A stretch of DNA of 5,707 bases from an uncultured Rhizobiaceae group bacterium (GTDB lineage Bacteria > Pseudomonadota > Alphaproteobacteria > Rhizobiales > Rhizobiaceae), in the NCBI GenBank assembly GCA_905479965.1, contig CAJQOR010000409.1, positions 1 through 5,707 of the forward strand. Direction: 5' to 3'. The position numbers were made by a program, and so were the translations under genes. This document shows, piece after piece, positions 1 to 5,707 of this stretch; position 1 is the first letter of the stretch, and every line of letters begins with the position of its first letter. The notes under the pieces are model-generated. The model searched no databases. It was not told where the DNA came from and saw nothing but the letters and a program-made list of their open reading frames with translations.

Positions 1-2632
1 GGAAGCCTTTGGTGACCTCGGGTGAGTTTGGCGATAATGACCAAGCCCCTTTACGTTTACCAATGGCATTCCAAGTCCAAAGTGTTTTTTGGTTCACAGC
101 ATTCATGCGGCGCACCGGCACTTTGATCTTGCCATGATAGGATATAATCCATGCCCAATCACCATCTTCAAGCCCTGATTCATCACAAATTTCAGACGGG
201 ATATACATCGGGTTATCACCATGAATCTGGCGCAACCAAGCATTTTGCGATCCCCATGAATGGTACATTGCAGCAGGTCTTTGCGTCAGCGCATGATATG
301 GATATTCGCCCGTATCAATTCCTGTACCTTCAAATGGTTCATACCAATCAGGCAGCGGATCAAAACACTCTTTAATGCGCAACGCATGGCTTTGCGGTGC
401 TTTGGGCTCCATCTTACCTTCTGCACAGAGTTGGAATTTCGCCAACGGTTCGCAGTAGATCTGGAAGACGTTTTCAACAGGCGCATCCTGAAGCCCCATT
501 TCAACTGCCCAATTCTGCCAAGCCATATTTGCATGTTTGTAATAAAGCGCTTCGGTCGGCACGTGACTTTCAGAAAATCCACCATTTTCAATGTAGCGTT
601 TAATCTGATCTGGGTTCGGTTCACCGCGACCCGTTTTATCGCCATCTTCACCGCGCCAGCCTGCAAGCGGGCCAACTCCAGGTTTACGCTGGTGATTAGT
701 GATATAATCGGCATAGTCTTTAAACTTAGCGCTGCCATCTTCATTAGTCATACCCGGCAAACCAAGGCGTCCACCTAAATCAATGAGGACAGATTGGAAC
801 CCGCGAACATCACGGTCCGGTTCAAAAACTGGCCAGCGGATGGCATCACACATGGCCTCTGGTTCACTGATCGGACGGTCAAGAAGCGAGATTGCATCAT
901 GGCGCTCAAGATATGTCGTATCTGGCAAGACCAGATCAGCATAGGCCACCATTTCAGATGAATAAGCATCTGAATAAATGAGTTTTGGAATGATATATTC
1001 GCCATTCTCATCTTTATCAGTCAGCATTTTCATAACGCCGGATGAATTCATCGACGAGTTCCATGACATATTGGCCATATACATGAACAACACATCAATG
1101 CCGTATGGATCACGCGCATGCGCATTTGGAATAACCATATGCATTAACCCATGCGAAGACATCGGAGCATCCCATGAAAACGCTTTATCAATGCGCTGCG
1201 GGGTTATGCCATCGTCTTCTAATAACATGCCTTCCGGACCACGCATGAAACCAAGCTGAGGTCCTGCAAGTGGCGTATTAGGTTTTGAACCGCCATGCGG
1301 CGCAGGTTGTGCACTCACTGGACGTGGGTATGGCGGCTTAAATCTAAACCCGCCCGGGCAATCAATTGAACCAAGCAAAATTTGAAGAACGTGGATAGCT
1401 CGGCAAGTTTGAAAACCATTTGAGTGGGCTGAAATTCCGCGCATCGCATGGAACGATACCGGGCGCCCGATCATTTTATCGTGCTTCTCGCCCTTCATAT
1501 CCGTCCAAGGTTGGTCAAGAGTGATTTCTTTTTCAAACGCAGCTTCAGCGATTTCTCCGGCAATACGAACAATTTGGTTTTCGCTCACACCCGTTGCTTC
1601 GCACACATTGGCGGGTGCGTATTTCTCGTCCATATATTTTTCTGCAAGCAACGCAAATGCAGGTTGGGCTTTCACCCCTTTTTTGACAGAAATTTCTCCC
1701 TGTAGATCTGGCTTAACACCTTTTTTGTTGTAAGCCACCGCTTTGCCTGATTTACGATCGAGCACCAAAGCATTGCCGTCTTTATCGCGCGCGAATGTGC
1801 CGTGATCATTTCCACCTGGATTATTAATCACCAACCAAGGTGCGTTCGTATAGCGGATGAGGTAATCAACATCGATACGACCAGCTTTTAACAGCTCGTG
1901 AATGATGGAAAGCACAAACAAACCATCCGTGCCAGGTGTGATACCCACCCATTCATCAGCAATCGCATTGTAGCCAGTACGAACCGGGTTAACGCCGATG
2001 GTTTTAACACCGCGAGATTTTAACTTCGACAAACCGATCTTAATCGGGTTGGAATCATGATCTTCCGCGACACCAAAAATGACAAACAATTCTGTTTTGT
2101 CCCAATCAGGTGAACCAAACTCCCAAAACGCACCACCAAATGTGTAGATACCGCCCGCGGCCATATTGACCGAACAGAACCCACCGTGGGCAGCAAAATT
2201 TGGTGTTCCATATTGTTGCGCCCACCAACCTGTGAAACTTTGTGATTGGTCACGACCTGTGAAGAAGGCAAGCTTCTTAGGATCTTTTTTGCGCACGTCG
2301 GACAACCAGCCAGTGGCCATCTCCAATGCTTCTTCCCATTCAATCGGCTCAAACTTACCTTCGCCGCGTTCGCCAACGCGTTTGAGTGGCTTAGACAAGC
2401 GCGCCGGAGAATAGTGTTGCATGATGCCCGCAGAGCCCTTTGCACACAAAACACCTTTGTTAATTGGATGGTCTTTATTACCCTCAATATAGCGGATTTT
2501 ATCTTCGCCATTTTCATCCTTGCGGACATGAACATTAATGCCGCAACGACAAGCACACATATAACATGTGGTCTGGCGAATTTCATCCGACACATGCGGC
2601 GACTTATCAACCACGTGAGAAGTTTCTGACAA
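1..2632 (-). CDS. soeA: SoeA-like molybdopterin oxidoreductase, catalytic subunit (3' end outside window)
   Basis: The frame stays open for 877 codons and leaves the window at its left edge. The family is usually about 950-970 residues, so perhaps 80-90 are missing. Residues 18-75 form the Mo/4Fe-4S N-terminal domain with Cys23, Cys26, Cys30 and Cys63, followed by Lys65 (VLCAKG), as in the DMSO reductase superfamily. Cys153 in GFCSVNMAAGG sits where the protein ligand to molybdenum is expected. The molybdopterin-binding core fills the middle, and the C-terminal dinucleotide-binding domain begins near residue 775 (NPMYIPSEICDESGL). The N-terminus has no twin-arginine signal, so the enzyme should be cytoplasmic. 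This favours SoeA, which oxidises sulfite to sulfate with SoeB (Fe-S) and SoeC (membrane anchor), over exported PsrA/PhsA. The neighbouring taurine transporter supports sulfite as substrate. Start: TTG at 2632, because an in-frame TAG lies two codons upstream and GGAGGA lies 8 bases upstream. A cysteine-type formate dehydrogenase or other family member is not excluded. The oxidoreductase family is near certain; the SoeA assignment is an inference. Confidence 0.8.
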   Translation of the reverse strand, partial: MSETSHVVDKSPHVSDEIRQTTCYMCACRCGINVHVRKDENGEDKIRYIEGNKDHPINKGVLCAKGSAGIMQHYSPARLSKPLKRVGERGEGKFEPIEWEEALEMATGWLSDVRKKDPKKLAFFTGRDQSQSFTGWWAQQYGTPNFAAHGGFCSVNMAAGGIYTFGGAFWEFGSPDWDKTELFVIFGVAEDHDSNPIKIGLSKLKSRGVKTIGVNPVRTGYNAIADEWVGITPGTDGLFVLSIIHELLKAGRIDVDYLIRYTNAPWLVINNPGGNDHGTFARDKDGNALVLDRKSGKAVAYNKKGVKPDLQGEISVKKGVKAQPAFALLAEKYMDEKYAPANVCEATGVSENQIVRIAGEIAEAAFEKEITLDQPWTDMKGEKHDKMIGRPVSFHAMRGISAHSNGFQTCRAIHVLQILLGSIDCPGGFRFKPPYPRPVSAQPAPHGGSKPNTPLAGPQLGFMRGPEGMLLEDDGITPQRIDKAFSWDAPMSSHGLMHMVIPNAHARDPYGIDVLFMYMANMSWNSSMNSSGVMKMLTDKDENGEYIIPKLIYSDAYSSEMVAYADLVLPDTTYLERHDAISLLDRPISEPEAMCDAIRWPVFEPDRDVRGFQSVLIDLGGRLGLPGMTNEDGSAKFKDYADYITNHQRKPGVGPLAGWRGEDGDKTGRGEPNPDQIKRYIENGGFSESHVPTEALYYKHANMAWQNWAVEMGLQDAPVENVFQIYCEPLAKFQLCAEGKMEPKAPQSHALRIKECFDPLPDWYEPFEGTGIDTGEYPYHALTQRPAAMYHSWGSQNAWLRQIHGDNPMYIPSEICDESGLEDGDWAWIISYHGKIKVPVRRMNAVNQKTLWTWNAIGKRKGAWSLSPNSPEVTKGF

Positions 2633-2934: not shown

Positions 2935-4266
2935 TTAGCCACGCCCCTTCCAAGGAACAAGTTTATCTTCTGCCATACGCATAAGAACGTCGATACCATA
3001 CCCGATGACACCAATGATAATAATACCAATGATCACGATGTCAGTCAGTTGGAATTTAGATGCGGCGATAATCATTTTACCAGCACCTTTTTCCGCAGCT
3101 ACGAGTTCTGCCGCCACAACGGTTCCCCAACAAACACCCATGGCAACACGCGCCCCGGTGAATATTTCAGGTAGTGAGTTCGGTAAAATAACCTTCATCA
3201 ACAATTGTCGTTTAGTGGCTCCCAGCGAATAAGCTGCATGAACTTTTGAGATATTCACACCAGACACACCCGCGCGCGCTCCAATGGTCATAATCCACAA
3301 CGCCGCTAAGAAGAGAAGACTGATCTTACCTTGCTCGCCAATACCGAACCAAATGATAATCAACGGGATCAGTGCAAGTGGCGGTACCGGACGCATGAAC
3401 TCTACAATTGGATCAAACCAACCACGGAGCCAAGAGTTTAGACCCATGGCAAAACCAAGCGGAATACCAAACAGACAACCCAATGCGAAACCAACAACAA
3501 CGCGGATAAGAGACCAAAACACGTTCTCCCAAAGACCCACGCCTTGGTAACCTTCAGCATTTAACTGCCAAAATCTATCCCAAACCTGCTCAGGTGGCGG
3601 CAAGAACAAAGCTTCCATCGTGCGACCTTGTGCCGGGCGAACCGACAAAGACCCCTTAGATGTCATGAAGATTTCACCATCATTAATAGCAACAATGTCA
3701 TTTGGGCTAATTGGCTTGCCGTCAATTGCTGTCACACGATAGCCTTCATCTTTACCACCCACATCATTGTCTTGAGCTTTCAAGATCTTGCCGCGTCTTT
3801 CAGGCACAAGAACAGCATCATCGATCGCAAATCCAGTTGATGAATTGGTAAACTCAGGCGCTGAGGCACCTTCTTCACCTTGCTTGGAGACATAGACAAA
3901 CACTGTAGCATCAGCCGTTTCGCCAGCTGCATTCGTCGCTGTATATTGAAACGACGTTTCGCCAGTAAACGGTGGAGGCAAAATAGTGAACGGTATAAGC
4001 TTACTTCCCGTCGCAATCCCCCACAACAAGAAGATTGTAATCACCGCAGCAATAGACGCGGCTCTGTTGGCGGTTACAGCACTTTCGTCACCAAATGTAA
4101 CTGTTTTGAGGCTGTCAAATCCGGTTGCCTTTGCTCTACCGCGACTATAGGCGGTATAAACCAAAGAACATAAACCAGATACTGCTAAGTATATCCCAAA
4201 GATTGCGGCAATGCCGAGAACCATCCAGAACGTTGTCGAAATTAGATCACCGATTTCACCCCACAT
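2935..4266 (-). CDS. tauC: Taurine/sulfonate ABC transporter permease TauC with a long N-terminal extension
   Basis: A 443-residue inner-membrane permease that forms the channel for sulfonate import with TauB and TauA. From LFLPPPEQV (residues 220-228) to the C-terminus it follows E. coli TauC closely, with FGIPLGFAMGL, RPVPPLALIPL, WFGIGE and the ATPase-contact loop AAYSLGATKRQLLMKVILP (344-362). E. coli TauC is about 275 residues. The extra length comes from an additional helix (about 13-37), a basic cytoplasmic loop (about 38-69), and a roughly 120-residue insert after the helix at about 70-94, which corresponds to the first helix of E. coli TauC. The insert, predicted periplasmic, resembles a cadherin/Ig-like repeat. 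Start: the ATG at 4266 overlaps the tauB stop codon as TAATG and has GGAG 8 bases upstream, which suggests translational coupling. An ATG at 4311 is in frame but would overlap tauB by 46 bases. Taurine is the likely substrate; a related sulfonate is possible. Confidence 0.88.
   Translation of the reverse strand: MWGEIGDLISTTFWMVLGIAAIFGIYLAVSGLCSLVYTAYSRGRAKATGFDSLKTVTFGDESAVTANRAASIAAVITIFLLWGIATGSKLIPFTILPPPFTGETSFQYTATNAAGETADATVFVYVSKQGEEGASAPEFTNSSTGFAIDDAVLVPERRGKILKAQDNDVGGKDEGYRVTAIDGKPISPNDIVAINDGEIFMTSKGSLSVRPAQGRTMEALFLPPPEQVWDRFWQLNAEGYQGVGLWENVFWSLIRVVVGFALGCLFGIPLGFAMGLNSWLRGWFDPIVEFMRPVPPLALIPLIIIWFGIGEQGKISLLFLAALWIMTIGARAGVSGVNISKVHAAYSLGATKRQLLMKVILPNSLPEIFTGARVAMGVCWGTVVAAELVAAEKGAGKMIIAASKFQLTDIVIIGIIIIGVIGYGIDVLMRMAEDKLVPWKGRG
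3604..3969 (-). other. Cadherin/Ig-like insert in the first periplasmic segment of TauC (residues 100-221)
   Basis: Residues 100-126 (FTGETSFQYTATNAAGE, then a TVFVYV strand) look like the second half of a bacterial tandem-95/cadherin-like repeat. Residues 146-214, with FAIDDAVLVPE, NDVGG, VTAIDGKPI, NDGEIFM and GSLSVRPAQG, look like the first half. The order is therefore swapped relative to a standard repeat. LPPP stands immediately before the insert (96-99) and again immediately after it (222-225). The only LPPP of E. coli TauC matches both positions. The frame is open throughout and composition does not differ visibly from the rest of the gene. The domain assignment is by eye from motif pattern, without a profile search. 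Confidence 0.55.
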
Positions 4267-5069
4267 TATGCACTCTCCGTCCGGCCCATAATCTCTTCTT
4301 CCATATCCCAAATCATATTTAGGATCTCGTCACGTATGGGTCCAAAATCTTTGTGACGTTTAACTTCACGCAAATCAGCACCAACGCCAATTTCCGCAAA
4401 AGGAAGTTGATATTCTTTGTGAACTCGGCCAGGACGAGGAGCCATAACAAGTAGGCGCTCACCAAGAAGCAACGCTTCTTCTACCGAGTGAGTGATCAAA
4501 ATGATTGTTTTGCCTGTTTCTTTCCAAATATCCAAAACGAGGCTCTGCATTTTCTCACGTGTCAATGCATCAAGCGCACCAAGTGGCTCATCCATCAAGA
4601 TAACATCAGGATCATTTGCAAGACAGCGCGCCAAGGCAACACGTTGTTGCATACCGCCCGACAGCTCATAAATCATTTTATTTTCGAATTCTTGCAATCC
4701 TACAATTTCAAGAAGCTCTTTGGTTCTCTTGCTGATCTCATCTTTTGGACGACCAGCCATGCGAGGGCCAAAACCGATATTCTCGGACACATTCATCCAT
4801 TCAAAAAGTGCACCCTTTTGAAAAACCATGCCACGTTCGGAATGAGGTCCAAGCACGCGGTCACCGTTGAGAGAGATTTCACCAGCTGTGGGAGCTAGAA
4901 AGCCAGCAAGAATATTCAAGAGCGTGGTTTTCCCGCAACCAGATGGACCAAGCACGGCCATCAGCTCGCCTTTTTTAATATTGAGATTGATGTTTTTTAA
5001 AGCCTCAACAGAGCCCCCATCGGGCAAAGAGAAGGTCATGGAAACATCGTTAATGATCAAACCAGACAT
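4266..5069 (-). CDS. tauB: Taurine/sulfonate ABC transporter ATP-binding protein TauB
   Basis: A 267-residue cytoplasmic ATPase that powers the TauC permease. All nucleotide-binding motifs are present and intact: Walker A GPSGCGKTT (41-49), Q-loop glutamine 84 in MVFQKGALFEWMNV, signature LSGGMQQRVALARCL (136-150), Walker B ILMDEP (157-162), D-loop GALDA (164-168) and switch histidine 194 (LITHSVEEAL). Length and motif wording fit the nitrate/sulfonate/taurine (TauB/SsuB) group. Start: ATG at 5069, because GGAGGT lies 7 bases upstream and the protein then opens directly into the first ATPase strand (MSGLIINDVSMTF). An in-frame ATG at 5114 would add 15 unrelated residues and lies in the loop of the upstream hairpin. 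The gene follows tauA after 83 bases, and its stop codon overlaps the tauC start. SsuB-type sulfonate or nitrate ATPases look similar; the neighbouring genes make taurine the best guess. Confidence 0.92.
   Translation of the reverse strand: MSGLIINDVSMTFSLPDGGSVEALKNINLNIKKGELMAVLGPSGCGKTTLLNILAGFLAPTAGEISLNGDRVLGPHSERGMVFQKGALFEWMNVSENIGFGPRMAGRPKDEISKRTKELLEIVGLQEFENKMIYELSGGMQQRVALARCLANDPDVILMDEPLGALDALTREKMQSLVLDIWKETGKTIILITHSVEEALLLGERLLVMAPRPGRVHKEYQLPFAEIGVGADLREVKRHKDFGPIRDEILNMIWDMEEEIMGRTESA
4273..4278 (-). promoter_or_regulatory. Ribosome binding site of tauC, inside the end of tauB
   Basis: GGAGAG on the minus strand precedes the ATG at 4266-4264; its GGAG core is 8 bases from that ATG. 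It lies within the last codons of tauB. Together with the TAATG stop/start overlap it supports the 4266 start for tauC and ribosome re-initiation from tauB. Confidence 0.7.
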
Positions 5070-5152: not shown

Positions 5153-5707
5153 TTACATTTTTGTAGCAGCTTCAAGATAGCTTGCATCAATAACAGCTGA
5201 ATAGTCTGGCAGTGCTTTGATTTTACCTGATGATTCTAAGCTTGCTGCAGCATTTGTGAAGAACTCGGCAACACCGCCACCCATCCACTCAGCTGAAAGC
5301 TGTGTGTCTGTTGTAGGGAACACAAATGTACCGATCACTGCTGTAGTGCCTTCAGCATCCATACCAGCAGCTTTTGCAATTGAATCCATCATTGGAGCTG
5401 GATCAGCTGCATATTGCGCATTCATGTCGGCAGTAACCTTCAAGAATTTCGCAAGGATTTCTGGGTTTTCTTCACCAAATGACGTTGGGATAGAAGTGAT
5501 ATCAAACACTTTACCAACAACAGCTTCTTTTTCAGCGCCTTCGATGATTGGGCTACCATATTGCTTCATTGCGCGAAGTGAACCACCCCAACCGCAAGCC
5601 ATAGCAAGATCAGTATTTGGCTGAGCAAATGCAGCAGCTGAATCTGATGGAGCCATATCCACGATCTCAAGATCACTTTCAGCAATACCGAAATGTGCCA
5701 TTTGAGC
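5153..5707 (-). CDS. tauA: Taurine/sulfonate ABC transporter substrate-binding protein TauA (C-terminal 184 residues)
   Basis: The frame is open to the right edge, so the start, signal peptide and first lobe lie outside; the family is usually about 320-340 residues. The visible part is the second lobe and C-terminus of a periplasmic binding protein of the NMT1/TauA group. It has the hinge-side stretch LAMACGWGGSLRAMKQYG, then GAEKEAVVGKVFDITSIPTS, FLKVTADMNAQYAADPAPM, and a C-terminal helical part with QLSAEWMGGGVAEFF. This wording resembles taurine-binding proteins of marine alphaproteobacteria as I remember them. It would deliver taurine or a related sulfonate to TauBC. The gene ends with TAA at 5155-5153 and is followed by the GC-rich hairpin, which fits the usual pattern of a more highly expressed binding protein. 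The substrate cannot be confirmed without the first lobe. Confidence 0.82.
   Translation of the reverse strand, partial: AQMAHFGIAESDLEIVDMAPSDSAAAFAQPNTDLAMACGWGGSLRAMKQYGSPIIEGAEKEAVVGKVFDITSIPTSFGEENPEILAKFLKVTADMNAQYAADPAPMMDSIAKAAGMDAEGTTAVIGTFVFPTTDTQLSAEWMGGGVAEFFTNAAASLESSGKIKALPDYSAVIDASYLEAATKM

Follow-up and report, generated by a model that had tools for sequence, protein, structure and literature searches.

Among described import permeases, the nearest counterpart of the element reported here is the P2 domain of MalF, in the Escherichia coli maltose importer. P2 has an immunoglobulin-like (Ig-like) fold, and MalF carries extra N-terminal helices; P2 reportedly interacts with MalE throughout the transport cycle, and we know of no permutation in it. 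The window analyzed here, a stretch of 5,707 nucleotides from an uncultured Rhizobiaceae bacterium (contig CAJQOR010000409.1), encodes a TauC-type ATP-binding cassette (ABC) permease with a putative circularly permuted Ig-like domain inserted between the first two transmembrane helices of its core (TM1 and TM2). MalF-P2 is periplasmic, spans residues 91-271 and touches MalE with one segment, according to excerpts of PMC3150292. Like the TauC insert, P2 ends near the start of the shared permease core. MalF pairs with MalG, giving one P2 per importer, whereas TauC would contribute two inserts if, as we infer, it forms a homodimer. A sequence or structural match between P2 and the insert was not found in this analysis.

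The insert is homologous in sequence to the Big_9/tandem-95 repeats of giant RTX-type adhesins, from which it differs in being single-copy, in having its halves swapped and in being tethered at both ends to membrane segments of a transporter. Short TauC proteins of E. coli, S. meliloti and Paracoccus share the same core (45-49% identity over residues ~215-442). The E. coli protein (L092, 275 amino acids [aa]), that of Paracoccus ferrooxidans (L091, 275 aa as annotated) and the S. meliloti homolog (L089) have neither the insert nor the extra N-terminal helix of the window permease, and its loop motif KTVxFGD was not found in them by pattern, a pattern that also missed one long permease (L034, KTITFGD). 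The CmpB and NrtB permeases (9ua0 and 8wm8) are 255 and 265 residues long; they aligned almost end to end and are likewise without such a domain.

The TauC insert resembles an adhesin repeat taken out of register

An earlier note on this DNA had described about 120 residues absent from E. coli TauC and one extra N-terminal helix, and had likened the insert to tandem-95/cadherin-like repeats. The insert occupies residues 100-221, the motifs that had been quoted are present in the translated sequence, and both the structure model and hydropathy bear out the helix (Table 1). The family assignment also held, with the isolated insert scoring 24.7 bits against Big_9 (PF17963); what had been missed is the circular permutation and the presence of the domain across a whole clade. 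In the intact 443-aa protein Big_9 reaches 20.5 bits, short of its cut-off of 23.6, and five relatives straddle that value (26.7-26.8 bits in P0025, P0029 and P0039; 19.7 in P0010 and 20.8 in P0057). In the natural order, Big_9 matches only positions 56-88 of its 89, its C-terminal end, at residues 93-124 of the window protein, and no single collinear full-length match occurs. When the halves are swapped, three members match over profile positions 6-88, 8-88 and 6-87, and the window's member over 29-88. On these comparisons we assign the insert to the Ig/tandem-95 (Big_9) family as a circularly permuted domain with its C-terminal half leading, and Pfam covers just half of the domain in the window protein because of this permutation.

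An adhesin profile was built from five repeats of one giant frame (L105, 7,695 residues, of which a piece of 5,167 was read), starting like Big_9 at the repeat's first strand, and 77 inserts were scored against it with cut points in tenths. The best cut fell at the linker, where 76 of the 77 scored above their natural order. A second profile of 29 adhesin repeats gave 41.6 bits with the linker cut versus 25.9, again with 76/77 inserts improved. Scores for the NCBIfam tandem-95 model, which after the swap rose slightly in three of four members and fell in the window's (23.2 to 22.5), neither support nor refute the permutation. In the converse search, an insert profile matched five consecutive L105 repeats at 35.4-47.5 bits each, spaced ~103 residues apart. 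Run on 398 Pseudomonadota genomes (one a known carrier; at most 10 candidates scored per listed genome), this profile matched 21, of which 13 frames of 424-490 residues are permease-like and 8 are 553-7,695 residues long. The simplest origin of the insert would be a single adhesin repeat period taken out of register. A search with the insert alone, whose length limits put giant adhesins outside its reach, scored 717 candidates, of which 61 reached E<=0.001; 60 of these carry the permease domain, and the other is a 256-aa piece named taurine permease. The window holds one copy in a 443-aa permease, not a tandem repeat array in a large secreted protein.

The insert is predicted to be a periplasmic beta-sandwich

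Modeled alone, the insert forms eight strands with a mean predicted local distance difference test score (pLDDT) of 91.8 and a predicted template modeling score (pTM) of 0.81. The model thus confidently predicts the beta-sandwich that the earlier note had proposed, its packing being read from the strands and the pTM. Two separate half-domains are unlikely, as the insert alone folds as a single confident unit (pTM 0.81); exchange of halves between two protomers is possible. In the full permease model the insert keeps block-mean pLDDT values of 80-92, and the core is weaker.

The insert follows the first core helix and ends just ahead of LPPPEQV; a second LPPP (residues 96-99) precedes it, and short TauC proteins carry one such motif. 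By alignment, TM1 and the core of the model superpose on CmpB, NrtB and MalG. On this homology, which includes TM1 for CmpB and MalG, and on charge, the insert is assigned to the TM1-TM2 loop of the core and to the periplasmic face, the side the earlier note had favored; residues 40-68, on the other side of TM1, hold five K/R versus three D/E. One chain of a MalFGK2 entry (MalF by its numbering) also aligned, model residue 225 corresponding to chain residue 260. The insert ends at residue 221 and P2 at 271; the slot of the insert is therefore roughly that of MalF-P2.

The insert marks one clade of TauC-type permeases

Long TauC relatives, which the earlier note had suspected in databases, proved very common: a protein search with the window permease scored 7,998 candidates, 5,339 of them at E<=0.001, insert-less relatives included. 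The best 120 of these 5,339 are 72-96% identical to the window permease over 97-100% of its length, and the 55 proteins placed in an alignment with it are 72-95% identical to it. From 580 genome relatives we took the best 80 as a locus set, and the insert is present in all 80 (78 by pattern; L044 and L056 by eye), which rules out a one-off insertion or assembly artifact. The other relatives of the 580 could include insert-less permeases. All 21 genomes reached from the loci have one long permease each, the other matches listed starting at residue 185 or later.

We also searched 385 genomes of the class with the short-TauC core; 32 matched and 30 loci were taken, comprising 5 long permeases, 11 short ones, 7 that lack the insert but have the KTVxFGD loop and 2 of ~650 residues, with the remaining 5 unread. 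No frame was obtained by pattern in L108, L130, L131, L132 and L134, and L124, L126 and L128, all long, stand outside the tree. In this tree, which is midpoint-rooted only, the 26 long sequences (that of the window, 21 from the 80-locus set and 4 more) form one side of a branch supported at 100/99, beside the insert-less sisters with the KTVxFGD loop, one of which (L117) splits from the other six at 92/71. Long branches were flagged for L133, L112, L118, E. coli and the long sequence L103; because of these, and because E. coli joins L118, the branching order of the short sequences is unsure.

The extra N-terminal helix is missing from all seven insert-less sisters (hydropathy peaks of -0.52 to 0.21), and among the 23 of 26 long sequences with readable N termini, 21 peak at 2.05 or above; L066 and L072, cut at the match start, give 0.89 and 1.47. 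The ~650-residue permeases (L135, L136) branch outside the long and sister sequences and do have the helix. They carry ~270 extra residues, different from the insert, between TM1 and LPKP, so that the FGD-to-LPKP junction measures ~310 residues in them, 164 in the window protein and 38 in two sisters. A Pfam scan of this stretch in one protein gave no match. This leaves two possible histories: two separate gains of the helix and slot domain, or an early gain of both followed by exchange and by loss in the sisters. A tentative extension, which we hold less probable than not, is that domains are exchanged at the TM1-LPPP loop in sulfonate-type importers: unrelated periplasmic modules, an out-of-register repeat taken from an adhesin gene in one case and the ~270-residue domain in the other, would have entered on separate branches, each with an extra N-terminal helix, to serve as docking arms tailored to the binding protein of their lineage.

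Several observations were made beside these relatives. The ~645-residue relative at L139:5944-7872, like those of L135 and L136, lies beside its own binding-protein and ATPase genes. Short TauC relatives in L113-L116 have 22 extra residues, including two cysteines, behind an LPPP-type elbow. A truncated frame near a sister tau-type operon (L140:1-2728) begins with a motif that we take to resemble the start of Cas9 RuvC-I.

The insert diverges in step with TauA

If the insert docks the binding protein TauA, both are expected to diverge together. We compared divergence in 76 of the 80 loci (L023, L035, L061 and L067 left out). The partial correlation between insert and TauA, given core and ATPase, is 0.426, and that between insert and ATPase, given core and TauA, is -0.131. 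No co-divergence was seen between the insert and the MocR regulator (-0.119, 35 loci) or Tpa (-0.10, 25 loci), both encoded nearby and taken as cytoplasmic. Of all parts compared, the insert diverges fastest, at a mean distance of 0.895 (core, 0.213); speed alone does not explain its link to TauA, because MocR evolves nearly as fast (0.80 versus 0.885). The insert thus diverges in step with TauA and not with the ATPase.

A proposed docking arm for TauA

We propose that one clade of taurine-type ABC importers gained a single permuted Ig-like domain in the TM1-TM2 periplasmic loop, and that this domain acts as a docking arm resembling MalF-P2 and of separate origin. In the presumed TauC homodimer, each TauC would bring one copy, so that two would stand above the membrane and hold or orient TauA over the translocation path. 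We give this reading a probability of roughly one half. Physical contact between insert and TauA, which the earlier note had suggested, and any effect on transport are inferred; the support for docking is the co-divergence with TauA. Several points weigh against the proposal. That evidence is indirect, and the permutations behind it take no account of relatedness. Co-variation with TauA is also seen for the core (0.332) and the TM1 region (0.125), and one quadratic variant with 35 loci puts the insert-ATPase value slightly above zero (0.097, p 0.047). The full model is a monomer whose core is moderately confident (mean pLDDT 74.2, pTM 0.58). Structure searches with the insert gave no MalF-P2 match, a permuted domain probably being hard for such searches. 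In addition, one of four insert-less sister regions searched has xsc beside the permease (L141), and short TauC genes lie near xsc in S. meliloti and Paracoccus; a taurine importer as such can therefore do without the domain.

That insert-less relatives occur in taurine context, and that the insert diverges fastest of all parts compared, would suit an insert that is neutral, a passenger or spacer acquired in one event and retained since loss is rare. We regard this as improbable, given that the insert is retained throughout the 80 loci and, flanks counted, shows 13 columns without variation across 65 sequences. Somewhat better placed, though still unlikely, is a clamp on the dimer, in which two inserts pack together or brace the extra N-terminal helix and stabilize the importer, leaving TauA untouched. 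The occurrence of that helix in two lineages with different inserts, and its absence from 7/7 insert-less sisters, suggest that helix and domain may be one unit; a clamp, however, gives no reason to expect that the insert co-diverges with TauA more than core and ATPase account for. A further reading is that the insert has a target other than TauA, be it taurine, peptidoglycan, calcium or some periplasmic partner. In its favor, Ig and cadherin domains frequently bind ligands, and D150, N167 and D168 each show conservation of 90% or more across 69 sequences. We consider this the least probable of the readings, as L019, L021 and L028-L030 have lost the conserved residues, a loss that also leaves the calcium binding offered in the earlier note unsupported. 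The docking arm is the reading we prefer.

Other features of the window and its relatives

TABLE 1 Features of the window
Feature	Coordinates	Strand	Basis
TauC-type ABC permease, 443 aa	2935..4266	minus	Open reading frame from ATG at 4266
Extra N-terminal transmembrane helix, residues 2-45	4132..4263	minus	Structure model; hydropathy peak 2.24
Conserved, predicted cytoplasmic loop SLKTVTFGDESAVTANR, residues 52-68	4063..4113	minus	Conservation; motif also in sisters
Core TM1, residues 68-86	4009..4065	minus	Model helix; CmpB structural alignment from CmpB residues 24-28
Predicted periplasmic insert, circularly permuted Ig/tandem-95 domain, residues 100-221	3604..3969	minus	Profiles and model
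Insert first half (strands 102-111, 117-127), homologous to Big_9 C-terminal part	3886..3963	minus	Big_9 profile 56-88 of 89 at residues 93-124; strands from model
Insert second half, residues 146-211, six strands, homologous to repeat N-terminal part	3634..3831	minus	Single match with first half after rotation; strands from model
LPPP behind insert, residues 222-225	3592..3603	minus	Sequence
TauB-type ATPase, 267 aa from ATG	4266..5069	minus	274.3 bits with NCBIfam TauB, short of its cut-off of 357
TauA-type binding protein, C-terminal 184 aa, cut by window end	5153..5707	minus	TIGR01729 87.9 bits on fragment, below cut-off 304.25
Molybdopterin oxidoreductase, SoeA-like by context, cut by window end	2..2632	minus	Top NCBIfam match PhsA with 176.9 bits, short of its cut-off of 694

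The permease has the permease domain of type I importers (BPD_transp_1, residues 267-435, E 1.1e-28). Its top NCBIfam match is TauC at 225.8 bits, short of the cut-off of 342; with a length of 275, that profile appears to be a model of the short type. In the loop ahead of TM1, K54, T55, T57, F58, G59, D60 and E61 are invariant across 69 sequences, and the related motif KTVxFGD (KTVTFGDESAV in the window) recurs in the 7 insert-less sisters. This cytoplasmic loop is perhaps an ATPase contact. The region of residues 50-92 co-varies with the ATPase (partial correlation 0.25).

The permease frame lies downstream of the TauB-type ATPase and the end of the TauA-type gene and upstream of the molybdopterin oxidoreductase; the latter SoeA-like gene is 302 bases from tauC. 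A binding-protein gene is present in 78/80 loci and an ATPase gene in 79/80, the misses (L023, L061) being at contig edges; most of the loci have binding protein, ATPase and permease together as one operon. Counted anywhere in the fetched locus, up to 10 kb on either side, further neighbors are MocR (36 loci), a class III aminotransferase (25), Xsc (18), Pta (14), a molybdoenzyme (12), and Fe-S and DmsC-type partner genes (10 each). Xsc and Tpa were looked for in four of the insert-less sister regions; xsc adjoins the permease in one (L141), and Tpa was found in none. Genes for an extracytoplasmic function (ECF)-type sigma factor and an EF-hand protein lie near the tau operon at L002:6127-7265, and the protein cluster of each is represented in 6/80 loci.

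One representative of each neighbor was named. Xsc passed its cut-off and the regulator that of PdxR; the aminotransferase fell below all listed cut-offs, as did a full-length binding protein (TIGR01729, 141.5 versus 304.25). Because representatives miss their cut-offs (MocR passing that of PdxR), the names Tpa, TauR, TauA and SoeABC rest on context and on the Ruegeria pomeroyi annotation (as given in part of PMC4334477). The operon likely takes up taurine. In R. pomeroyi, a tauC (SPO0676) mutant on taurine lost 92.8% of growth and 49.1% of drawdown, and a tauA mutant lost 91.8% of growth with no significant change in drawdown, according to excerpts of PMC10130141. To judge from the relatives L043, L045, L053 and L054, SPO0676 is probably a long-type TauC.

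Significance

Our literature searches, in which subscription journals were thinly covered, returned no description of the TauC insert or of a clade-wide permuted adhesin repeat in such a permease. What is new here is most likely a MalF-P2-like arm of separate origin in a taurine-type permease. The tauABC system of R. pomeroyi is a verified taurine transporter and was among the more expressed transporters in a plankton bloom (excerpts of PMC10130141), and the SoeA-like gene by tauC in the window would tie taurine uptake to sulfite oxidation. If the proposal is true, the TauC insert is a second, independently arisen domain in the slot of MalF-P2, and the insert-less and differently inserted relatives permit direct tests of what such arms do.
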